Assembly (NCBI GenBank): GCA_017614995.1
Contig: JAGAAX010000032.1
Coordinates: 1-44,788, forward strand
Source: Spirochaetaceae bacterium
GTDB lineage: Bacteria; Spirochaetota; Spirochaetia; Treponematales; Treponemataceae
Length of the DNA: 44,788 bases
Reading direction: 5' to 3'
In this document: in pieces, positions 11,154 to 22,310 of the stretch
Position numbering within the stretch: position 1 is the first letter of the stretch
Layout of the letters: every line of letters starts with the position of its first letter
Notes under the pieces: model-generated
Databases searched by the model: none
Told to the model about the DNA's origin: nothing
What the model saw: only the letters and a program-made list of their open reading frames with translations
Program-made: the position numbers and the translations under genes

Positions 11154-11506
11154 TTTCTTCCTCCTAAAACTAACTTCTTTCTGTTTTTTGCCAATTCCAA
11201 ATCTTCTAGTGGAGTTTTCTGACTCTTTTTTATTATTGCATGAAGCAGAATCATTTTTTTATTACCCACTGTAAAAAAGATTCTGCAAATTCTCTTGTCA
11301 GAAATAGAAGTCCTTACTTCCCATAAATCGCTGTCCATTTTTCTGACTTTTGGATAACCTACAGGCCAGGACATTTCTACAGCCATTATATCTGCTCCTA
11401 CTGATTTTTTATCTTCAGTTGATAAGGCTGTTAGAAAATCCCTTACAGGTTCATTTCCATTTTCTGTTTTAAAGAAATCAGCCTGTAATTTCTTTTTTAT
11501 TTCCAT
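11150..11506 (-). CDS. higB: HigB/RelE-like mRNA interferase toxin (Gp49-like)
   Basis: 118 residues of the RelE-superfamily Gp49/HigB type: NEPVRDFLTALSTEDKKSVGADI, then VRKMDSDLWEVRTSISDKRICRIFFTVGNKKMILLHAIIKKSQKTP. The LWEVR...RIFF...LLHAIIKKSQKTP series is characteristic. The family cleaves mRNA on the ribosome. It is the first gene of the operon. The ATG has no Shine-Dalgarno and follows the -10 by exactly 6 nt. Confidence 0.85.
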   Translation of the reverse strand: MEIKKKLQADFFKTENGNEPVRDFLTALSTEDKKSVGADIMAVEMSWPVGYPKVRKMDSDLWEVRTSISDKRICRIFFTVGNKKMILLHAIIKKSQKTPLEDLELAKNRKKLVLGGRK

Positions 11507-12402: not shown

Positions 12403-14322
12403 ATGAAACCAGAAACCATTATTACAAAGACTGTCAATGTTGAAGTCGATGGAAAATCTATACCTCTTTTTATTACAAATGATTATGCTGCCGTTTTAAA
12501 AGAAATAAAGAGACTGAATTACAAAATTCCACTGTTAGAAGACTATCAGGGGACATATGAATATTTTCCTGATGAAATAAGAGAAGAGATAGAAAAAACA
12601 CTGATAGAACATCACACTTCATGGGGAATATATATAGCAGAAGATTATATAGCTATAATACATTTCTTAGATACAGACACAATGGGTCGTCTAAAAATAA
12701 ATATATCATTATCAGCACTTATTCGAGAAAAAAACGATAAAACACAAACCGATAAAACACAACTGCTTTTGGAATATGCTTCTTTAAATAAAACTGTTGA
12801 AATTGGACAGCTAATCAAAGATGGAGTTGATGTAAATTTTTGTGATGAACAAAAATCTACTGCATTGATGTATGCTGCTTATTTTGATTCTCCTGATTCT
12901 GCTAGTATTCTTTTAAAACTAGGTGCAGATGTTAATGCAAAAAACAAAAATGGATATACAGCACTTATGATAACTACTTGGTTTAATGCTTACAACACAG
13001 CAGAAGAATTATTGAAATCTTCTCATTTAAATGTTGAAGAAAAAGATAATTCAGGAACGAGTGCATTGACTTATGCTGCAGGACAACCCGGAGAAAAGAT
13101 CCTTACAATGCTGATTGAATCTGGTGCGGATGTAAATACAATGAATTTGTGTGGTATAACGCCTTTGCATAAAAGTGCCCGTTTTAATTATATTTCTTGT
13201 ACTGAAATCCTTATAAAAAATGGTGCTAATATAAATCAGACAAACAATCACAATGAAACACCGCTAATGGTGGCAACATATGATGATAATGTTGAAATTG
13301 CAGAAAAATTGCTTTCTTTAGGTGCAGATTTTACAGTGAAAGACTGTTATGGTCGCTCTGCTCTTTGCCATGCAGCTCATAATGATTCTTTTGACTGTAC
13401 ATCACTCTTTTTAAAAAAATGTAATATTTCTGATGAAGATTTGGATTTGGCGATTATCGAAGCGGCAAGATCAAATCATACACAGACTCTTAAACTTCTT
13501 TTAGATAACTCTAAAGACCAAAAATTATCTGCTTTAAATGCTGTAATGGGCGCCTGTATTGAGAACCACCCAAATGTGATTAAATGTTGCAAAGAGTATA
13601 ACTGTGATTTGAATGAAATAAATCAATTAGTATCAATGACTCCTTTAATGGCAGCTTGTTACTGCGGTTCTAAAGAGTCAGTTGGAGAGCTAATATACTC
13701 GGGGGTTGATGTAAATTGTGCAGATGAATATGGTATGACACCACTTATGTATGCTTCAATGGTAAATTCTACAGTCATAGTTTTAATGTTGCTCAACAAT
13801 GGTGCAGATAAAACAGCAAAAGATGAGAACGGAAAGACTTTTGAAGATTATTCTAAAATTAATGAAAAGCGCTCCTTTTCAGATTTTATCACATACAGAA
13901 ATTCAACTCATATAAAACAGGACTTTGAAAGTGAAGAAGAGATTCCAGAAGATCAGCAGCCGTTTATTGAACGTTTTCAGTGGTATAAGCAGAGGTATTT
14001 TGAACGCTTTCCGAATAATAAAGAATCAGATATTTATAATGCTGCAAAAATCTCAAAGCAGACTTTTTCAAAAATCCAAAGCAAAAGGAATACAGCTTAT
14101 CACCCACAAAAGCCCACTATTATTCAGCTTGCATTGGGTTTGCGTTTGAATCTAGATGAAACCAGAGATTTACTAAAAAGTGCAGGGTATGTACTTTCAG
14201 ATGATGATAAAATAGATAGTATAATCAAAAAATTTATTATTGAACTAAAAACCGATCCTCATGAATTAAACGAATATATTGAAAAAATATCCGGTTCTGT
14301 ATTTTTCAAAAAAGTGAAATAG
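12403..14322 (+). CDS. Ankyrin-repeat protein with HTH-like C-terminal module, copy 1
   Basis: 639 residues, no signal peptide. Residues 1-115 form an unrecognised domain shared with the next gene (PETIITK...FITNDYAAV). About residues 125-490 hold eight or more ankyrin repeats (motifs such as TALMYAA, LLKLGADVNAKNKNG, TPLMAACY). Residues about 515-635 form a separate module, beginning PFIERFQWYKQRYFERFPNN, with an HTH-like stretch SDIYNAAKISKQTFSKIQ and LNLDETRDLLKSAGY. I recognise this module from the ends of other bacterial proteins. Ankyrin repeats bind partner proteins, so this could be a sensor or regulator. It is AT-rich and transcribed independently. Confidence 0.8.
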   Translation: MKPETIITKTVNVEVDGKSIPLFITNDYAAVLKEIKRLNYKIPLLEDYQGTYEYFPDEIREEIEKTLIEHHTSWGIYIAEDYIAIIHFLDTDTMGRLKINISLSALIREKNDKTQTDKTQLLLEYASLNKTVEIGQLIKDGVDVNFCDEQKSTALMYAAYFDSPDSASILLKLGADVNAKNKNGYTALMITTWFNAYNTAEELLKSSHLNVEEKDNSGTSALTYAAGQPGEKILTMLIESGADVNTMNLCGITPLHKSARFNYISCTEILIKNGANINQTNNHNETPLMVATYDDNVEIAEKLLSLGADFTVKDCYGRSALCHAAHNDSFDCTSLFLKKCNISDEDLDLAIIEAARSNHTQTLKLLLDNSKDQKLSALNAVMGACIENHPNVIKCCKEYNCDLNEINQLVSMTPLMAACYCGSKESVGELIYSGVDVNCADEYGMTPLMYASMVNSTVIVLMLLNNGADKTAKDENGKTFEDYSKINEKRSFSDFITYRNSTHIKQDFESEEEIPEDQQPFIERFQWYKQRYFERFPNNKESDIYNAAKISKQTFSKIQSKRNTAYHPQKPTIIQLALGLRLNLDETRDLLKSAGYVLSDDDKIDSIIKKFIIELKTDPHELNEYIEKISGSVFFKKVK

Positions 14323-14357
14323 TAAATTTATAAAACTTTTAAGACTTTGGATTTTCA

Positions 14358-14366
14358 TGGTATAAT
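14358..14366 (+). promoter_or_regulatory. Extended -10 of second ankyrin gene
   Basis: TGG-TATAAT, 26 nt before the ATG at 14393, within TTTTCATGGTATAATA, matching the upstream paralogue's promoter. Confidence 0.6.
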
Positions 14367-14392
14367 ATAAGCAGGAAGACGAACCTTTTTGT

Positions 14393-16282
14393 ATGAAACC
14401 GGAAACTATCATTACTAAGAATATCTATGTAGAAATCGGAGCAGAATCTTTTCCATTTTTTATTACAAACGATTATGCTGCTGTTGTAGAAGAAATAAAA
14501 AGATTGAAATATAAAATTCCGCTGTTAGCAGACTATCTGGTCAATGAGCGATTCCCTAATGAAGTAAAAGAAAAGATGATAGAACAGCATACTCGGTGGT
14601 CAATATTTATAACAGAAGATTGTATTGCAGTAACATTTCTTGATGAAAAAATAAATTCGGCAAGTACCGCTCTTATTCGGGAAAAAGCTGAAGAAGAAAC
14701 TCTTGATAAAAAACAACTGCTTTTTGAGTATGCTTCTTTAAATAAAACTTCTGAAATTGAACAGCTTATTAATGAAGGTATTGATGTAGATTCTTGTGAT
14801 GTAGGAGAAATTACTGCATTGATGTATGCTGCCAATTTTGATTCACCGGATGCTGTCCGAACTCTTATAAAACTAGGTGCTGATGTCAACGCAAGAGATA
14901 AAATTGGATTGACAGCACTTATGTGGGCAGCCTGCGAGAATGCCTGCATGAGTGCTGAAGAATTATTGAAATCTTCTGAATTAAATATTGAAGAAAAAAA
15001 TAATGTTGGAGTAACAGCATTAAGCTTTGCTGTATCATGCTGTTGTGAAGATGTTTTTATGCTGCTGATTGAAGCAGGTGCAGATGTGAATACAAAGACC
15101 GTATTTGATTTTACGCCTTTGCATTGTTGTGCTAATTATAATCAAGTTTCTTTCGCTGAAATTCTTATAAAAAATGGTTCAGATATTAATCCTGTTGATA
15201 ATGAAGGTATGACACCCCTAATGCTAGCAGTCTGCTTTAATAATGTTGAAATTGCAGAAATATTGCTTTCAGCAGGTGCTGATATTACAATAAAAGACAG
15301 CCATGGTTTCTCAGTATTTAAATATGCAGCCGAAAATGATTCTTTTGATTGCTTATCACTCTTATTAAAAAAATGTAATATTCCTGATTATGATTTGTTT
15401 GATGCGATTGAAGTAGCCGCAAGAAAAGGTCATACACGCTCTCTTAAACTTCTTGTAGATAAGAGTGAATATAAAGAAGCTTCTGTTAGAATAGCTCTAA
15501 AGTATGCTTGTATAGGAAACCAGCCTGATATAATTGTATTTTGCAAAGAGTATAAATATAATTTCGATAGCATAACATCCTTCTTTATGACACCTTTAAT
15601 GATAACCTGTTACTGCCATTCAACTGAAGCAGCCGCTGAACTAATACGTGCTGGTGTAGATGTAAATTGTGCTGATGAATACGGTATAACAGCTCTTATG
15701 TATGCATCAATGGTAAATGCTCCTAATATAGTTATGATGCTTCTTGACAACGGTGCAGACAGAACTGCAAAAGATAAGGACGGAAAAACTTTTGAAGATT
15801 ATTCAAAAATAAATGAAACTCGACCAATAGAAACATTTGAAGCTTGTAAAGTTTGGAACAAAATCCAAGCACAAGTTGAAGCTAAATTGGAAGCTGAGAT
15901 TTCTGAAAAATCGAAGCCGTTCATAGAACGTTTTCAATGGTATAAGCAGAAATATTTTGAACGGTTTCCGAATAACAAAGATTCGGATATTTATAATGCA
16001 GCTGAAATTTCCAAACAGACTTTTTCAAATATCAAAAAACAAAAGAATAAACTTTTTCACCCCAATAAGCCTACTGTTATTCAACTTGCACTGGGTTTAC
16101 GTTTGAATATAGAAGAAGCTAAAGATTTATTACAAAGTGCAGGTTATGCGCTTTCCGAAGATGATAAAACAGACATTTTAGTTAAAAAATTTATTACAGA
16201 GCAGAAAACTAATCCGTATGAATTAAATGAATATGCTGAAAGAATATCTGGTAATTCACTTTTTCCAAATCTAAGGTTCTAG
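14393..16282 (+). CDS. Ankyrin-repeat protein with HTH-like C-terminal module, copy 2
   Basis: 629 residues, paralogue of the gene 70 nt upstream. It has the same three-part plan: N-terminal domain (residues 1-110), eight or more ankyrin repeats (about 120-480), and the C-terminal module from PFIERFQWYKQKYFERFPNN with SDIYNAAEISKQTFSNIK. The ends are nearly identical between copies while the ankyrin surfaces differ, which suggests a shared output and diverging partners. Its own promoter is a duplicate of the first gene's, so the duplication unit included the regulatory region. No Shine-Dalgarno is seen. The function is unknown. Confidence 0.8.
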   Translation: MKPETIITKNIYVEIGAESFPFFITNDYAAVVEEIKRLKYKIPLLADYLVNERFPNEVKEKMIEQHTRWSIFITEDCIAVTFLDEKINSASTALIREKAEEETLDKKQLLFEYASLNKTSEIEQLINEGIDVDSCDVGEITALMYAANFDSPDAVRTLIKLGADVNARDKIGLTALMWAACENACMSAEELLKSSELNIEEKNNVGVTALSFAVSCCCEDVFMLLIEAGADVNTKTVFDFTPLHCCANYNQVSFAEILIKNGSDINPVDNEGMTPLMLAVCFNNVEIAEILLSAGADITIKDSHGFSVFKYAAENDSFDCLSLLLKKCNIPDYDLFDAIEVAARKGHTRSLKLLVDKSEYKEASVRIALKYACIGNQPDIIVFCKEYKYNFDSITSFFMTPLMITCYCHSTEAAAELIRAGVDVNCADEYGITALMYASMVNAPNIVMMLLDNGADRTAKDKDGKTFEDYSKINETRPIETFEACKVWNKIQAQVEAKLEAEISEKSKPFIERFQWYKQKYFERFPNNKDSDIYNAAEISKQTFSNIKKQKNKLFHPNKPTVIQLALGLRLNIEEAKDLLQSAGYALSEDDKTDILVKKFITEQKTNPYELNEYAERISGNSLFPNLRF

Positions 16283-16344
16283 ATTTCTGATAACTACTCA
16301 AAAAAACAAAAAGCTCTATTTTTTTGAAATTCCTTTTTTCCTCT

Positions 16345-16393
16345 AAAAAGTCGCCTGTCAATTGACCATTCTCTGCGCAGCTTTCCTTATACT
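16345..16393 (+). promoter_or_regulatory. Shared regulatory box, copy B
   Basis: AAAAAGTCGCCTGTCAATTG plus ACCAT (16345-16369), then TATACT at 16388-16393, again 20 nt after TTGACC. GTCAATTGAC is a perfect palindrome here. It heads the small-gene cluster after a leader of about 145 nt that otherwise shows no gene. Confidence 0.6.
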
Positions 16394-16539
16394 CAACTTA
16401 TGATTTGCAGTTAGATAAATGACTGCAAGCTATAGAGAGCTAACAACAGACAATACTTCTGCTAATTAACAGAAGCTTCATGATTAGAAATATGAGGAGG
16501 TGAAAAACCTAAAACTTATAATTACAAGGAGAATGCAGC

Positions 16540-16725
16540 ATGTTCAATTTGAGCTGTTATTCACAGAAATACTTTGAAGAAATTATGAAAGAGAATTCTA
16601 AAAAGCAAAACAGGCAAGAGGGATTCTCGGAGGATGAATTGAAACAGGCATTTGAAGCAGGCTTTAAATTCTGCAAAGAAATGATTCACTGTTTCATTTC
16701 AGATATAGATAAAAAGAAGTCATAG
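16540..16725 (+). CDS. Small hypothetical protein
   Basis: 61 residues, not recognised; mostly helical by composition (EDELKQAFEAGFKFCKEMIHCF). AAGGAG lies about 9 nt before the ATG. First gene of a same-strand cluster running to 18793. It could be a small adaptor, but nothing shows its role. Confidence 0.6.
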   Translation: MFNLSCYSQKYFEEIMKENSKKQNRQEGFSEDELKQAFEAGFKFCKEMIHCFISDIDKKKS

Positions 16726-16788
16726 AGACAAGCGTTCTTGGGAACGTAAAACTAACATATATTCAAGAGAATGACATAGGAGTTTGAA

Positions 16789-17106
16789 ATGAACGAAGTA
16801 AGAATTTCAGGACACGTAAACCTTGCTTTTATTGATGACAATGGACATTTGTGCTGCACAATAGTATGCACTCACGACCACTATGTAGACGGCTACAATG
16901 TAGTAACCCAGACATACATCAGAGGTTTCATGCTGGACAGGTTAGCTTCAAAGGCTGCCGACATTCACGAAGGCGACGATGTATTTATCACTGGACACTT
17001 GAAGCAGGATATTAAACACAATGCTTCCGGCAATTTCCACCGGAAAGTAAATCTTTATATAGACCACATTGAAAAACAGGCTGTAAATGAGAATAAATTT
17101 TTTTAA
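16789..17106 (+). CDS. SSB-like OB-fold protein
   Basis: 105 residues resembling a short single-stranded DNA-binding protein: an N-terminal strand NEVRISGHVNLAFI, a central TYIRGFMLDRLASKAADIHEGDDVFITGHLKQD (family: GDxVxVxGxL) and a final strand KVNLYIDHIE. It lacks the acidic tail of housekeeping SSB. AGGAG sits 7 nt before the ATG. Mobile-element and plasmid modules often carry such small SSBs, which supports an acquired origin for this cluster. Confidence 0.65.
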   Translation: MNEVRISGHVNLAFIDDNGHLCCTIVCTHDHYVDGYNVVTQTYIRGFMLDRLASKAADIHEGDDVFITGHLKQDIKHNASGNFHRKVNLYIDHIEKQAVNENKFF

Positions 17107-17110
17107 CCAT

Positions 17111-17144
17111 GTAGCAATTCCTGCTACACCCCCTGTTTTATAAT
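17111..17144 (+). promoter_or_regulatory. Hairpin followed by -10-like element
   Basis: GTAGCA-ATTCC-TGCTAC (17111-17127) is a perfect 6-bp hairpin directly after the SSB-like gene. TATAAT follows at 17139-17144, giving a possible internal promoter for the downstream genes. No T-tract follows the hairpin closely. Confidence 0.4.
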
Positions 17145-17193
17145 TAGAAATATAGATAAAGCTGCCGTACTAATGGCAGAAAGGAGTAAAACC

Positions 17194-17460
17194 ATGAACA
17201 TTACAATAAATCAGACACAGAAAATTATTGCAGCTCTTGAGCTTCTTTCAAAAAAGAAACTTACAGAATCACAACAGACTATAGTTGATGAAGCTTATGA
17301 ATCTATTAAAGAGTGTGCAAAGAAACAGATTGAAAACAATCAGAAAAGCTATGAGCGTATTAAGCGCAAGAGAGCGGAGAATCCTCTTTACGCTCGTGAA
17401 AACAAACGCAAGCTCGGCAAACAGCGTGTTTGTGTAGCAGATTTTATTAAGGAGAAGTAA
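17194..17460 (+). CDS. Small basic helical protein
   Basis: 88 residues from the ATG at 17194, chosen because AAGGAG lies about 7 nt upstream; the longer frame from 17173 reads through that site. The protein is highly charged and helical (ECAKKQIENNQKSYERIKRKR) with a basic C-terminus. No family recognised. The stop is 4 nt before the next gene. Confidence 0.6.
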   Translation: MNITINQTQKIIAALELLSKKKLTESQQTIVDEAYESIKECAKKQIENNQKSYERIKRKRAENPLYARENKRKLGKQRVCVADFIKEK

Positions 17461-17464
17461 ATCT

Positions 17465-17683
17465 ATGAAAACAATTATGGGAGTTTATTCAGATGTTGCA
17501 TTGGTTTGCAAACCGCAGGCTTTTAAAGAGTTACATGGGGTTTTCTGGCAGATTTATGATGACGAAGTAAGAATCGTCGGTCTTTTAAGGCAGAAACATT
17601 TCAGCAATAACTATCCGCTTGTTTTTGTACAGGCAGAGCATATCGATTTGAAACCAAAAAAAGCTAAAGGAGGCAGAAAATGA
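17465..17683 (+). CDS. Small hypothetical protein
   Basis: 72 residues. A compact, probably beta-rich body (LHGVFWQIYDDEVRIVGLL) ends in a basic tail KPKKAKGGRK. GGAG from the end of the previous gene serves as ribosome binding site. The stop overlaps the next start (ATGA), so the two are translationally coupled. No family recognised. Confidence 0.6.
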   Translation: MKTIMGVYSDVALVCKPQAFKELHGVFWQIYDDEVRIVGLLRQKHFSNNYPLVFVQAEHIDLKPKKAKGGRK

Positions 17684-17982
17684 TACACGATTTCTTGGTA
17701 TCTCTTTTTGGTTATGAACTTGGAGAAGGTTTAGAAATATTGTTGATATGTGTTGTGGTAACATCAATAGTTCTTTTCCCTTTGTGTCTTCCTCTTTTGA
17801 GGAATACTTACTTCATTGACAAAATGAACGAGAAGAATAAAAGAAGACAGAAAGACAATTTCAACTACCAGCTTTCAAAGCTTGTCGGCGATGCTAAAAA
17901 AGATATGGAAATTTCTGAATGTAAAAAGGAAATTGAAGAACTGAAAGCAGAGATTGCAAGGCTTAAAAAAGACAAGAAATGA
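17680..17982 (+). CDS. Small membrane protein with coiled-coil tail
   Basis: 100 residues: one strong membrane segment at about 20-42 (ILLICVVVTSIVLFPLCLPL), then a highly charged stretch, ending in a coiled coil at about 70-98 (CKKEIEELKAEIARLKKDKK). AGGAGG lies shortly upstream of the ATG. It precedes the membrane-anchored hydrolase and may form a membrane complex with it. A spanin-like role is possible by shape only. Confidence 0.65.
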   Translation: MIHDFLVSLFGYELGEGLEILLICVVVTSIVLFPLCLPLLRNTYFIDKMNEKNKRRQKDNFNYQLSKLVGDAKKDMEISECKKEIEELKAEIARLKKDKK

Positions 17983-17998
17983 ATTTGGAGGTTAAGCC

Positions 17999-18793
17999 AT
18001 GAAAGATAACAATGAAATCAGATTCATTCACCGCGAAGAAACATTTACCGACCTTGCCGTAAGGGAACTTGCAGAGAGCTGTGCTGCCTGTCTGTGCCGT
18101 TTGCAGTTCAAACGCTGTACAGAAGACGAGTGTGAAAACTGTCAGGAAGGTATCGGATTCCGCAGATGTTACAACCAGATGAGTGATTATGACAGACAGC
18201 GTTTCAGCACCTATCTCAGACAGGCTTATGCAAGAAACGCCGAACACCCGGAAATGTGGCGTACATTCAAAGGTCTTGTCGGTCATGCAATTCTCTGGAT
18301 ATTGGGATTCTTTGCAGCATTTTTCTTTATCGGTTTCTTCCTGAGCGAGTGCGACAAGCCTAACAGACCGATAAAAGACAGCTATGCTTCTATCACTAAG
18401 GAAATGCACAGCAAGGTTTCAAACAATATCCGCTACACAAGCTTGAACATTTTCGATGTAACGGCGGACGGCAAGAAAAACTGTCAGGACTATTCGATAC
18501 TGTTCTACCTTTACTGGCAGGACAGATTCCCGGAAGACAAAGACAGAGTTTTCTTTGTGCGGAACAAGAATCCGTATAACGGAATGAATCACCTGTTTAT
18601 TTACATGATAGATTATGACGGCAGGGGATTTTATCTTGAACCGTGGGCAGATGTTCCGACCAGATACCTGATGTTTGATAGCTGGACTTCAAGATACAAT
18701 CCGAAGTACAACGAGATTATGCCTGCCGAGCGTTATCTTGAACGGGCAGTCAATGCAGTTTACAGAAGGAGGTATTCAAAAGAACCGAAATGA
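17999..18793 (+). CDS. Membrane-anchored transglutaminase/papain-like Cys-His-Asp protein
   Basis: 264 residues in three parts. Residues 1-60 carry seven Cys (CAACLC, CTEDECENC, C57), suggesting a zinc-binding domain. Residues about 94-115 are one membrane segment. Residues 125-264 look like a transglutaminase-like cysteine hydrolase: Cys162 in KKNCQDYSILFYLYW, His198 in GMNHLFIYMID, and Asp218 (or Glu214) in YLEPWAD are spaced as a Cys-His-Asp triad. If the N-terminus is inside, the catalytic part is outside the membrane. GGAGG lies 8 nt before the ATG. Last gene of the cluster. No named family is certain. Confidence 0.65.
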   Translation: MKDNNEIRFIHREETFTDLAVRELAESCAACLCRLQFKRCTEDECENCQEGIGFRRCYNQMSDYDRQRFSTYLRQAYARNAEHPEMWRTFKGLVGHAILWILGFFAAFFFIGFFLSECDKPNRPIKDSYASITKEMHSKVSNNIRYTSLNIFDVTADGKKNCQDYSILFYLYWQDRFPEDKDRVFFVRNKNPYNGMNHLFIYMIDYDGRGFYLEPWADVPTRYLMFDSWTSRYNPKYNEIMPAERYLERAVNAVYRRRYSKEPK

Positions 18794-18805
18794 CAGGCTC
18801 TAGTA

Positions 18806-18847
18806 TAAACCGCAGTTCCGTTTGCTGTTTTACGGAACGCGGTTTAT
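18806..18847 (+). terminator. Hairpin after the small-gene cluster
   Basis: AAACCGC(A)GTTCCGT pairs with ACGGAACGCGGTTT around a short T-rich loop, one bulged A. Only a weak T-rich tail follows (ATGTTATGCTTATTTTTT). Probable terminator, possibly bidirectional. Confidence 0.65.
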
Positions 18848-18957
18848 GTTATGCTTATTTTTTCTCAATAATCTCCCAGTGACTAGCTCGTCTGTTTTGT
18901 GTTCAAGGGCGGATGTGTCGGCGGTGCTGTCGGCTTTTTTTGCCGTGAGGATTTGGT

Positions 18958-19335
18958 CTACCAGGTCGTTTCTACTTCATATTTAGGAATGATTGTGTCC
19001 TTCGTGATTATAGTAATATTTTCCAATTGGGCAGTTGCAATCAAAAGCCTGTCAAATGGATCTCGGTGGATAAAATCAAGTGTTTTAGTTTTTTCAATAT
19101 GAGAAGCATTTATTGGAAGCTGTTGGAATCATGCATTTTTGCAAAATTCATCGAGTTCTGTAACTGCAAGAGCCATATCAAGTTTCCCAAGTTTTTGCTT
19201 AATTGCAATTTCCCATAAAGATGCAATGCTGTAAAAGCAAGTTTCAGATTCCATAAGGGAACGGGCATTTTGGGAAAGTTCGCCATTTCCCTGTGCATAC
19301 CAAAGAATTGCATGAGTATCGAGCAAGTATTTCAT
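18958..19335 (-). pseudogene. vapC: VapC PIN-domain toxin interrupted by in-frame TGA
   Basis: The frame from ATG 19335 to TAG at 18958-18960 encodes a full VapC of about 125 residues, broken only by a TGA at 19129-19131. The first part has MKYLLDTHAILWY (catalytic D6) and SIASLWEIAIKQKLGKL. After the TGA the same frame continues FQQLPINASHIEKTKTLDFI, then HRDPFDRLLIATAQLE and ITIITKDTI, exactly the C-terminal PIN motifs. The family usually has Gly at the stop position (N-G-F..LPI), so GGA to TGA is one base change. Without readthrough the product lacks two catalytic acids. It overlaps the vapB stop by one base. Confidence 0.85.
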
Positions 19336-19559
19336 CACATATACTCCGCAAAATCTTCTATTGGTTCATCAAAATCTGGAGCAATATATGTAATTTTTTT
19401 CTTTAAGGCGCCAAAATATGACTTTTTTTGGGTGTTTTCATGATGTTCTGAAAACTTGCTTTTATTCACATGATTTGCAATATATGCAAGCAAATAAAGC
19501 TGCTCTTCCATAGAGAAATCTAGTATCTTATTCTGTACCTGTAAAAGTTCATCGCTCAT
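19335..19559 (-). CDS. vapB: Antitoxin of the interrupted VapBC module
   Basis: 74 residues, resembling DUF2281-type VapB antitoxins: N-terminal helices (SMEEQLYLLAYIANHVNKSK) and a C-terminal acidic tail (YIAPDFDEPIEDFAEYM) that would bind the toxin. GGAGG lies 7 nt before the ATG, and an extended -10 TGG-TATAAT is about 20 nt upstream. The antitoxin frame is intact while its toxin is not. Confidence 0.75.
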   Translation of the reverse strand: MSDELLQVQNKILDFSMEEQLYLLAYIANHVNKSKFSEHHENTQKKSYFGALKKKITYIAPDFDEPIEDFAEYM

Positions 19560-19757
19560 ATTGCCACCTCCATCCGCTTACATTATACCATCTTTTGCGA
19601 AAAAATATATCTACTTTAAAGTGCTTTTATTGAATAAGCTTTACTATCAAGTATTATTAATAATGCCGGATTTTTATAATATTCATCTTCGGTATATCCT
19701 GTATAAATAGAAAGAATTGAAAACGCCTATGATGATATAGACAATCTTGTAAAGACT

Positions 19758-21277: not shown

Positions 21278-21318
21278 AAACTGTTTTAAGCGATAAAACA
21301 AAAGGTACCGTACATTGC

Positions 21319-21418
21319 AAGAGCCTGTGTAGGCGGATTTTGGCGCGCAAAAAATTCTGCAGGCACGAAGTGCCGAAGCCTTTTTGCGTGACGGAATCCG
21401 ACGAGAGCAGGCTCTTGA
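21319..21418 (+). repeat. Covarying hairpin repeat, copy 2
   Basis: Outer stem AAGAGCCTG/CAGGCTCTT, inner CGGATT/AATCCG, then GCGCAAAAA/TTTTTGCG, apex GGCAC-GAA-GTGCC. The sequence is almost identical to 22180-22279 and structurally matches 5482-5573. In copies 2 and 3 the flank CGTACAYTG precedes the element, so the repeat may start slightly earlier. Confidence 0.8.
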
Positions 21419-21434
21419 TTCGTGCCGAGGGTTT

Positions 21435-22161: not shown

Positions 22162-22179
22162 AGACATCGTACACTGCCC

Positions 22180-22279
22180 AAGAGACTGCGTAGACGGATT
22201 TTGGCGCGCAAAAAATTCTGCAGGCACGAAGTGCCGAAGCCTTTTTGCGTGACGGAATCCGACGAGAGCAGGCTCTTGA
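22180..22279 (+). repeat. Covarying hairpin repeat, copy 3
   Basis: Nearly identical to 21319-21418; a few changes in the left outer arm (AAGAGACTG) slightly weaken the outer stem. Same GGCAC-GAA-GTGCC apex. Confidence 0.8.
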
Positions 22280-22310
22280 TTGATGGGTCTGAAATAATTT
22301 GCAAAGTATG

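Follow-up and report, generated by a model that had tools for sequence, protein, structure and literature searches.

Several cysteine enzymes of the papain/transglutaminase-like kind are controlled by metals, sit at membranes, or are used by phages. MOA, LapG, and calpain have been named as members of a calcium-binding or metal-dependent papain-like class; MOA itself has Cys215, His257, and Glu274 as catalytic residues and depends on Ca2+/Mn2+ (PMC8244254). The LapG-type enzyme DvhG has an N-terminal membrane helix by which it is membrane anchored, with D316-C317-E318 as calcium residues (PMC13090378). HvyA, a BTLCP of Caulobacter, controls the capsule and phage sensitivity, and its catalytic residues matter for this (PMC4241560). 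The pseudomurein endoisopeptidases PeiW and PeiP, which come from archaeal phages, have a Cys-His-Asp triad and depend on a divalent metal (PMC4592898). Presented here is a cluster of six genes (g1 to g6) in a 44,788-base stretch of DNA (the window), which is the entire contig JAGAAX010000032.1 of a Spirochaetaceae genome of 3.05 Mb in 64 contigs whose named relatives are mostly Treponema. The last gene, g6, very likely encodes a cysteine enzyme of papain/transglutaminase-like fold, there is little doubt that the cluster comes from a phage, and g6 recurs together with its neighbor g5 in phages and in chromosomes (coordinates in Table 1).

The g6 product combines a Cys-rich N-terminal module (N-module), a membrane helix, and a C-terminal catalytic domain (C-module). 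The model of the full protein had a mean predicted local distance difference test score (pLDDT) of 81, with values of about 82 to 95 over most of the C-module, and the C-module modeled alone (43 sequences) gave a pLDDT of 91.8 and a predicted template modeling score of 0.85. In these predictions C162 opens a helix (residues 162 to 176), H198 lies on a strand (196 to 204), and E214 follows directly after a strand (210 to 213). The order of these core elements is that of the papain/transglutaminase-like superfamily in a matching fold, and Cys, His, and Glu were invariant in 58/58 domains (59 aligned rows, one of them a gap; L121, a truncated second copy in the window genome, was left out). A preliminary description of the cluster had proposed the triad C162, H198, and D218; the Cys and His were borne out, whereas position 218 is variable and the conserved acid is E214. 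Foldseek searches with the C-module returned MOA (E = 0.018; probability, 0.99) and its relative PSL1a in the first eight rows, followed by LapG. The top rows in VIA were LapG (Z = 7.5 to 7.7 over 115 to 119 residues) and MOA (Z = 7.2 to 7.5 over 96 to 98 residues), and further rows included NTAQ1, a transglutaminase, SpvD, protein-glutaminase, and vasohibins; most VIA rows belong to this superfamily. LapG and MOA, the nearest solved folds, are both calcium-dependent cysteine proteases. A BFVD fold search gave no clear family, with a phage "Transglutaminase" at E = 0.39 and a papain-fold toxin at E = 0.88. The model, the fold searches, and the conserved triad together support the earlier proposal of a membrane-anchored Cys-His-acid hydrolase. 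The enzyme class of g6 is well supported, and g6 is probably a peptidase that acts outside the cytoplasm.

C162 is part of a dockerin/EF-like loop (D-x-N-x-D-G-x-x-N-C-x-D) in which D153 (56/58), D157 (53/58), N161 (57/58), and D164 (58/58) are also conserved. Weak matches to Dockerin_1 were found in 27 of the 43 C-modules (best E = 0.00086), with one loop per C-module; among five longer proteins with a dockerin match, four stayed below the 22.9-bit cutoff and one (L099) reached 30.6. The family thus does not show the two loops and the match above the curated cutoff that mark type I dockerins. As read from the sequence, the Cys-bearing loop may be a metal switch.

Among the described enzymes, MOA has the same Cys-His-Glu order with similar spacing (C-42-H-17-E in MOA and C-36-H-16-E in g6) and was the best Foldseek match (PMC8244254). 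MOA is a fungal lectin chimera with the lectin domain in front, whereas g6 has a helical Cys-rich domain and a membrane helix at that place, so that the active site of MOA-type chimerolectins was found in g6 and their N-terminal lectin domain was not. LapG and other BTLCPs (Peptidase C93), which gave the best VIA match, are periplasmic enzymes of papain/transglutaminase-like fold with presumed metal residues beside the catalytic Cys, and control of g6, as of LapG, would be expected from the inner membrane. The triad acid is Asp in LapG but Glu in g6 (58/58), and the D-C-E of the LapG type is replaced by N161-C162-x-D164 within the dockerin-like loop, without acidic residues on both sides of the Cys. 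In addition, g6 has a Cys-rich, putatively cytoplasmic domain, and no LapD-type receptor was noticed beside it. With the 43 members as queries, 10 families were matched at E ≤ 0.1, and the BTLCP profile PF06035 was not one of them. HvyA resembles g6 as an exported BTLCP-type enzyme that affects phage sensitivity but is chromosomal, soluble in the periplasm, and of Cys-His-Asp type and acts on capsule control (PMC4241560). PeiW and PeiP (Peptidase C71) are likewise phage-encoded Cys enzymes of the same fold class, but their fold match is weaker, their triad acid is Asp, and they lyse archaeal cell walls, whereas g6 sits in an early region. The accessible text of the literature on Treponema phages and prophages, transglutaminase-like enzymes, and superinfection exclusion contained no description of the g6 family.

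In the N-module, Cys residues at positions 31, 40, 45, and 48 were all present in 35 of 45 aligned rows, and the other ten rows have L, a gap, A, and L at these positions. That the four are kept or missing together is as expected of one metal site, which judging from the sequence is probably a zinc site. These four are among the seven N-terminal Cys residues reported for g6 at the outset, all of which were located within the first 57 residues (28, 31, 33, 40, 45, 48, and 57). Against the PDB, the N-module resembled only the WYL activator DriD, over 64 residues (Z = 5.7), a similarity judged to reflect a common helical bundle. Both g5 and g6 have a single hydrophobic segment (residues 20 to 38 and 97 to 115, respectively), as had been described. 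Membrane helices tend to follow the positive-inside rule; R and K lie on the N side of the g6 helix, and the positive side of g5 comes after its helix. By these charges, the g6 N-module and the g5 tail are predicted to be cytoplasmic and the C-module to lie outside. Signal-like starts of stand-alone C-modules agree with an exported C-module.

A scan of viral contigs with g6 identified two IMG/VR contigs (L006 and L007) with 74 to 75% identity over the length of g6. The same two contigs carry g3 (77 to 79%) and g5 (46 to 50%), L006 also carries g2 (78%), and separate scans with g3 and with g2 returned the same contigs only. Neither g2 nor g3 had a match in 273 other genomes of the bacterial family, and in a tree of 19 full-length proteins the window g6 formed a clade with the two phage copies (support, 100/100). 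Ratios of nonsynonymous to synonymous substitution (dN/dS) between window and phage copies were 0.13 for g6, 0.14 for g2, and 0.19 to 0.27 for g3; the proteins have therefore been kept under selection. The neighborhood of the phage homologs includes genes for an exonuclease and for SSB- and HNH-like proteins (the last two as read by the authors from sequence). Genes for a terminase, a portal protein, and an exonuclease are present on the L006 contig, and genes for a DNA polymerase and a primase on related contigs. No match to g6 was obtained with tblastn among INPHARED phages. None of 5 phage contigs, each of which may be incomplete, matched the phage integrase family PF00589, and no terminase of the related phage group was found in the source genome.

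The suspected mobile source of this DNA was thus identified as a phage, but a six-gene unit was not borne out. The phage homologs are not contiguous: g3 is followed by further small genes, then by g2 next to g5, three genes, and g6. No homolog of g1 or g4 was found in the loci compared. It is the pair g5-g6 that recurs together. Because g2 and g3 are absent from the genomes of the family, the genome has no related terminase, and none of the five phage contigs has an integrase, the cluster most plausibly represents a piece captured from the early region of a phage rather than a prophage or a fixed operon.

The terminases of the phage contigs are 93, 72, and 67% identical to each other, and terminase was used as the query on viral contigs to avoid selection by g6. 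Twelve contigs were recovered, five of them with g6, including a new one of 58.5 kb (G594). Three of the seven contigs lacking g6 were read, and as read these do not cover the place of g6: G600 ends before it yet has g5, and G593 (26.2 kb) and G597 (28.4 kb) showed structural genes only over the 20 kb examined in either contig. The other four are 6.3 to 16.4 kb long. A g5-like gene was present in all eight phage contigs that cover its place (L006, L007, L058, L059, L062, L060, G594, and G600; genes were called with a simple caller, and the g5 of L060 was found by translating the stretch), and g6 was present in seven of these eight. On these counts, g5-g6 seems to be a constant feature of the phage group. 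In chromosomes, g5-like proteins adjoin 14 of 21 genes with a Cys-type N-module (12 by motif and two more by BLAST). A recent swap of g6 alleles among phages is not claimed; in 15 contig pairs the identity of g6 was often below the median of shared genes and seldom the lowest. A conserved gene of approximately 104 to 114 amino acids (aa) (GD..EV.P.IFGK..N.Y.NGYET..GFV) lies 3' of the phage g6, immediately next to it in L006 and L007 and separated from it by one small gene in L060 and L172.

Matches to g6 were found in 48 of 274 genomes of the bacterial family (23/128 among good-quality genomes), and the source genome has two further copies, on its contigs C42 and C34. Across the phylum, the C-module profile matched 22 of 392 genomes, of which 20 belong to the family of the window. 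The chromosomal matches comprise the N-module alone, the C-module alone, and the C-module fused to a longer tail. Stand-alone C-modules have a signal-peptide-like start in L055 and L012 and a lipobox-like start in L057. In the tree described above, three further phage copies fall into a group with four chromosomal copies (98/94), and a single clade of all phage-type copies was rejected (approximately unbiased test, P = 0.007), with the caveat that the tree has several long terminal branches and five internal ones left open. Since the phage copies do not form one clade, g6 has moved between phages and chromosomes, and more than once. Three proteins with a signal-peptide-like start (L048, 13456 to 14406; L049, 14551 to 15570; L050, 11726 to 12739) join the C-module to a tail that the authors read as outer-membrane beta-barrel-like; such fusions possibly display the enzyme on the outer membrane. 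Tandem N-modules without the four Cys residues occur in L051, L052, and L053, and the last one in L052 and L053 keeps a C-module.

Taken as a whole, the locus is tentatively read, with a chance of being right judged slightly less than even, as a piece of a phage early region in which g6, paired with g5, is a membrane-tethered periplasmic protease that remodels the host envelope. The source phage would infect Treponema-like bacteria, and g5-g6 would be the central part of the captured piece. The g6 protein would sit in the inner membrane with its four-Cys N-terminal domain in the cytoplasm and its papain/transglutaminase-like domain in the periplasm, where C162, H198, and E214 would make up the active site. 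The dockerin-like loop around C162 would most likely bind calcium and thereby switch the enzyme on. The g5 protein would cross the membrane in the opposite orientation, and its tail, being cytoplasmic, could therefore bind the cytoplasmic domain of g6 or control it. Early in infection the phage would produce both proteins, cut a host envelope protein (or a peptide cross-link), and thereby change the surface and exclude other phages; that surface change or exclusion is the purpose of g6 is possible but doubtful. Chromosomal copies would use this activity too, with regulation of their own, and some of them lie beside a WYL regulator. An envelope protease is proposed because enzymes of the LapG type act from the periplasm to cleave surface proteins, one of them, DvhG, is membrane anchored (PMC13090378), and HvyA is tied to phage sensitivity (PMC4241560). 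A more ambitious form is unlikely: in it, g5-g6 would be a two-gene inside-out envelope switch, a calcium-gated membrane protease new in kind. It would be a core component of Treponema phages of an undescribed group, and its exchange with Treponema chromosomes would let phage and host each use it to control entry into the cell.

Several observations weigh against the envelope-protease reading. No VIA match reached Z ≥ 8, no Foldseek match reached E < 0.001, and rows for menins, which are not enzymes, were mixed into the VIA list; the fold assignment therefore rests on the consistency of the lists and on the residues. Among the 43 C-modules, no Pfam or NCBIfam peptidase family was matched except for one weak Peptidase_C71 row (E = 0.0046), and PADLOC returned 0 families at E ≤ 0.01 for the window g5, the window g6, and one chromosomal g6. 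Loss of HvyA makes cells phage insensitive, which is opposite in sign to simple exclusion by enzyme action (PMC4241560). All phage contigs of the group seen to cover the locus carry g6, as would be expected of a core phage function no less than of an optional gene for exclusion. A BFVD fold search gave no clear family, with a phage "Transglutaminase" at E = 0.39 and a papain-fold toxin at E = 0.88.

The single Peptidase_C71 match bears on a different role, in which g6 would be a membrane-tethered endo-isopeptidase acting on the cell wall, opening peptidoglycan cross-links on behalf of the phage in a manner comparable to that of the pseudomurein enzymes PeiW and PeiP. PeiP appears in the fold list (Z = 5.6 over 98 residues), and both enzymes are encoded by phages and require metal (PMC4592898). 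This role is nevertheless quite unlikely: the Z score of PeiP is approximately 2 below those of LapG and MOA, the acid in g6 is Glu rather than Asp, g6 lies among early DNA-metabolism genes outside the structural block, and the common chromosomal copies would mean that hosts carry a wall-cutting enzyme. It is improbable that g6 is inert or a transferring enzyme (for example, a transglutaminase or deamidase) and that the role of g5-g6 is to provide an anchor in the inner membrane during phage takeover. The activity of g6 is itself a prediction, and the fold list also contains protein-glutaminase, NTAQ1, and transglutaminases (Z = 5.3 to 6.3), but two proteases, LapG and MOA, head the lists, and the strict Cys, His, and Glu in 58/58 domains are contrary to inertness.

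The chromosomal neighbors suggest instead a conflict system, in which g6-type toxins or defense effectors work with ankyrin proteins (as immunity or sensor) and WYL regulators and phages merely acquired copies. Of 51 chromosomal loci, 18 had an ankyrin gene within 8 kb and 12 had a WYL regulator within that distance; among 20 control stretches from related genomes the numbers were 0 (P = 0.0016) and 1 (P = 0.09), the single WYL match in the controls being only 27% identical. This link is only suggestive, since the 51 loci are not mutually independent, some are cut by contig ends, and 5 of 56 chromosomal loci in which no module was called (L008, L098, L101, L110, and L112) were omitted. The fusions of the C-module in several proteins, as in polymorphic toxins, and the tandem N-module copies in several loci are also in keeping with such a system. 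Against it, the ankyrin N termini show no export signal as read by the authors whereas the C-module is on the export side, so that the ankyrin proteins could not shield the C-module directly; the phage contigs keep g5-g6 with no ankyrin gene seen there; and neither g5 nor g6 had a PADLOC match. A chromosomal conflict system is considered an unlikely explanation, with some chance of being correct.

Very little is known about spirochaete phages; before a paper on 38 Treponema prophages, one prophage of the genus had been characterized (PMC11144348). If the envelope-protease reading is true, Treponema phages that apparently lack an integrase have a conserved early membrane enzyme not named by the libraries searched, with a host-side copy for comparison, and the small set of metal-dependent papain-like enzymes gains a modular family from bacteria and phages. 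It would also raise the testable question of whether cutting of the envelope from inside decides phage entry in spirochaetes. The chemistry of g6 is familiar; its architecture, its pairing with g5, and the traffic between phages and chromosomes are not covered by the libraries searched.

Table 1. Features of the g1-to-g6 cluster and its ankyrin-repeat neighbors, in window positions
Feature	Position	Strand	Basis or remark
g1, 61 aa, orphan, Shine-Dalgarno site	16540..16725	+	No homolog in loci searched by tblastn
g2, 105 aa, weakly SSB-like, phage gene	16789..17106	+	78% identical to L006:7091-7384
g3, 88 aa, phage gene	17194..17460	+	77 to 79% identical in L006 and L007
g4, 72 aa, orphan, ATGA overlap with g5 start	17465..17683	+	No homolog in compared loci (tblastn)
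g5, 100 aa, g6 partner; single membrane helix (20-38) followed by LRN.YFIDKM and a charged tail of heptad appearance	17680..17982	+	46 to 50% identical in L006 and L007
g6, 264 aa, predicted membrane-anchored papain/transglutaminase-like cysteine enzyme	17999..18793	+	
g6 N-module (residues 5-92), helical, Cys-rich	18011..18274	+	C31/C40/C45/C48 all present or all missing
g6 membrane helix (residues 97-115)	18287..18343	+	Positive N side, suggesting C-module outside
g6 C-module (residues 134-260), predicted catalytic domain	18398..18778	+	Model and LapG/MOA fold matches
Dockerin/EF-like loop D153-x-T-x-D157-G-x-x-N161-C162-x-D164	18455..18490	+	Conservation, weak Dockerin_1 matches
Codon of putative catalytic C162	18482..18484	+	C in 58/58
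Codon of putative catalytic H198	18590..18592	+	H in 58/58
Codon of putative acid E214	18638..18640	+	E in 58/58
Two tandem ankyrin-repeat genes (639 and 629 aa), cluster neighbors	12403..16282	+	May be functionally linked

All six forward open reading frames of the cluster were confirmed from the sequence (61, 105, 95, 72, 100, and 264 aa), as were the ATGA overlap at 17680 and the Shine-Dalgarno sites, an AGGAG-like sequence being present before every one of the six starts. For g3, the start is most likely 17194 rather than 17173 (88 instead of 95 aa), because 17194 lies behind a Shine-Dalgarno site and both phage homologs start there. The SSB-like character given to g2 was weak (Pfam SSB, 18.5 bits against a cutoff of 26; best PDB match, E = 0.94). 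The suggestion of a membrane-acting effector system may be correct. A 15-base motif upstream of g1 and g3 had no exact copy in other loci beyond those in the window and was dropped.

The cluster lies inside an AT-rich island at 11.5 to 22.5 kb of the window (G+C content, about 27 to 44%), which also carries toxin-antitoxin genes (helix-turn-helix/Gp49 and RelB/YoeB), the two ankyrin-repeat genes, and an AAA/DUF4143 gene. A PIN gene is immediately 5' of the cluster. Attachment-site repeats were sought around 15900 to 19700, where only short, poor repeats and none convincing were seen. An ankyrin gene is close to all three g6 copies of the source genome. The two ankyrin proteins of the window are 59% identical to each other, and PADLOC assigned them chiefly to the candidate ankyrin family PDC-M72A, along with weaker ankyrin models. 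Their common C-terminal part resembles a helix-turn-helix (SDIYNAA.ISKQTFSKI) and is also matched by proteins of the control stretches L128 and L142. At 11501 to 13681 of L128, a stretch with no g6 match, a distant WYL regulator is directly 5' of a protein with this C-terminal domain. A similar WYL/WCX regulator of approximately 340 to 360 aa lies a few genes from g5-g6-type genes in nine loci (L042, L045, L046, L047, L048, L049, L050, L089, and L097). The RelB/YoeB genes of the window are flanked by a 103-base direct repeat (21318 to 21420 and 22179 to 22281; 97% identical). The stretch that contains this repeat has 19 matches in the genome, one of which (C42:9530-9611) is approximately 1.1 kb from the g6 copy on C42.

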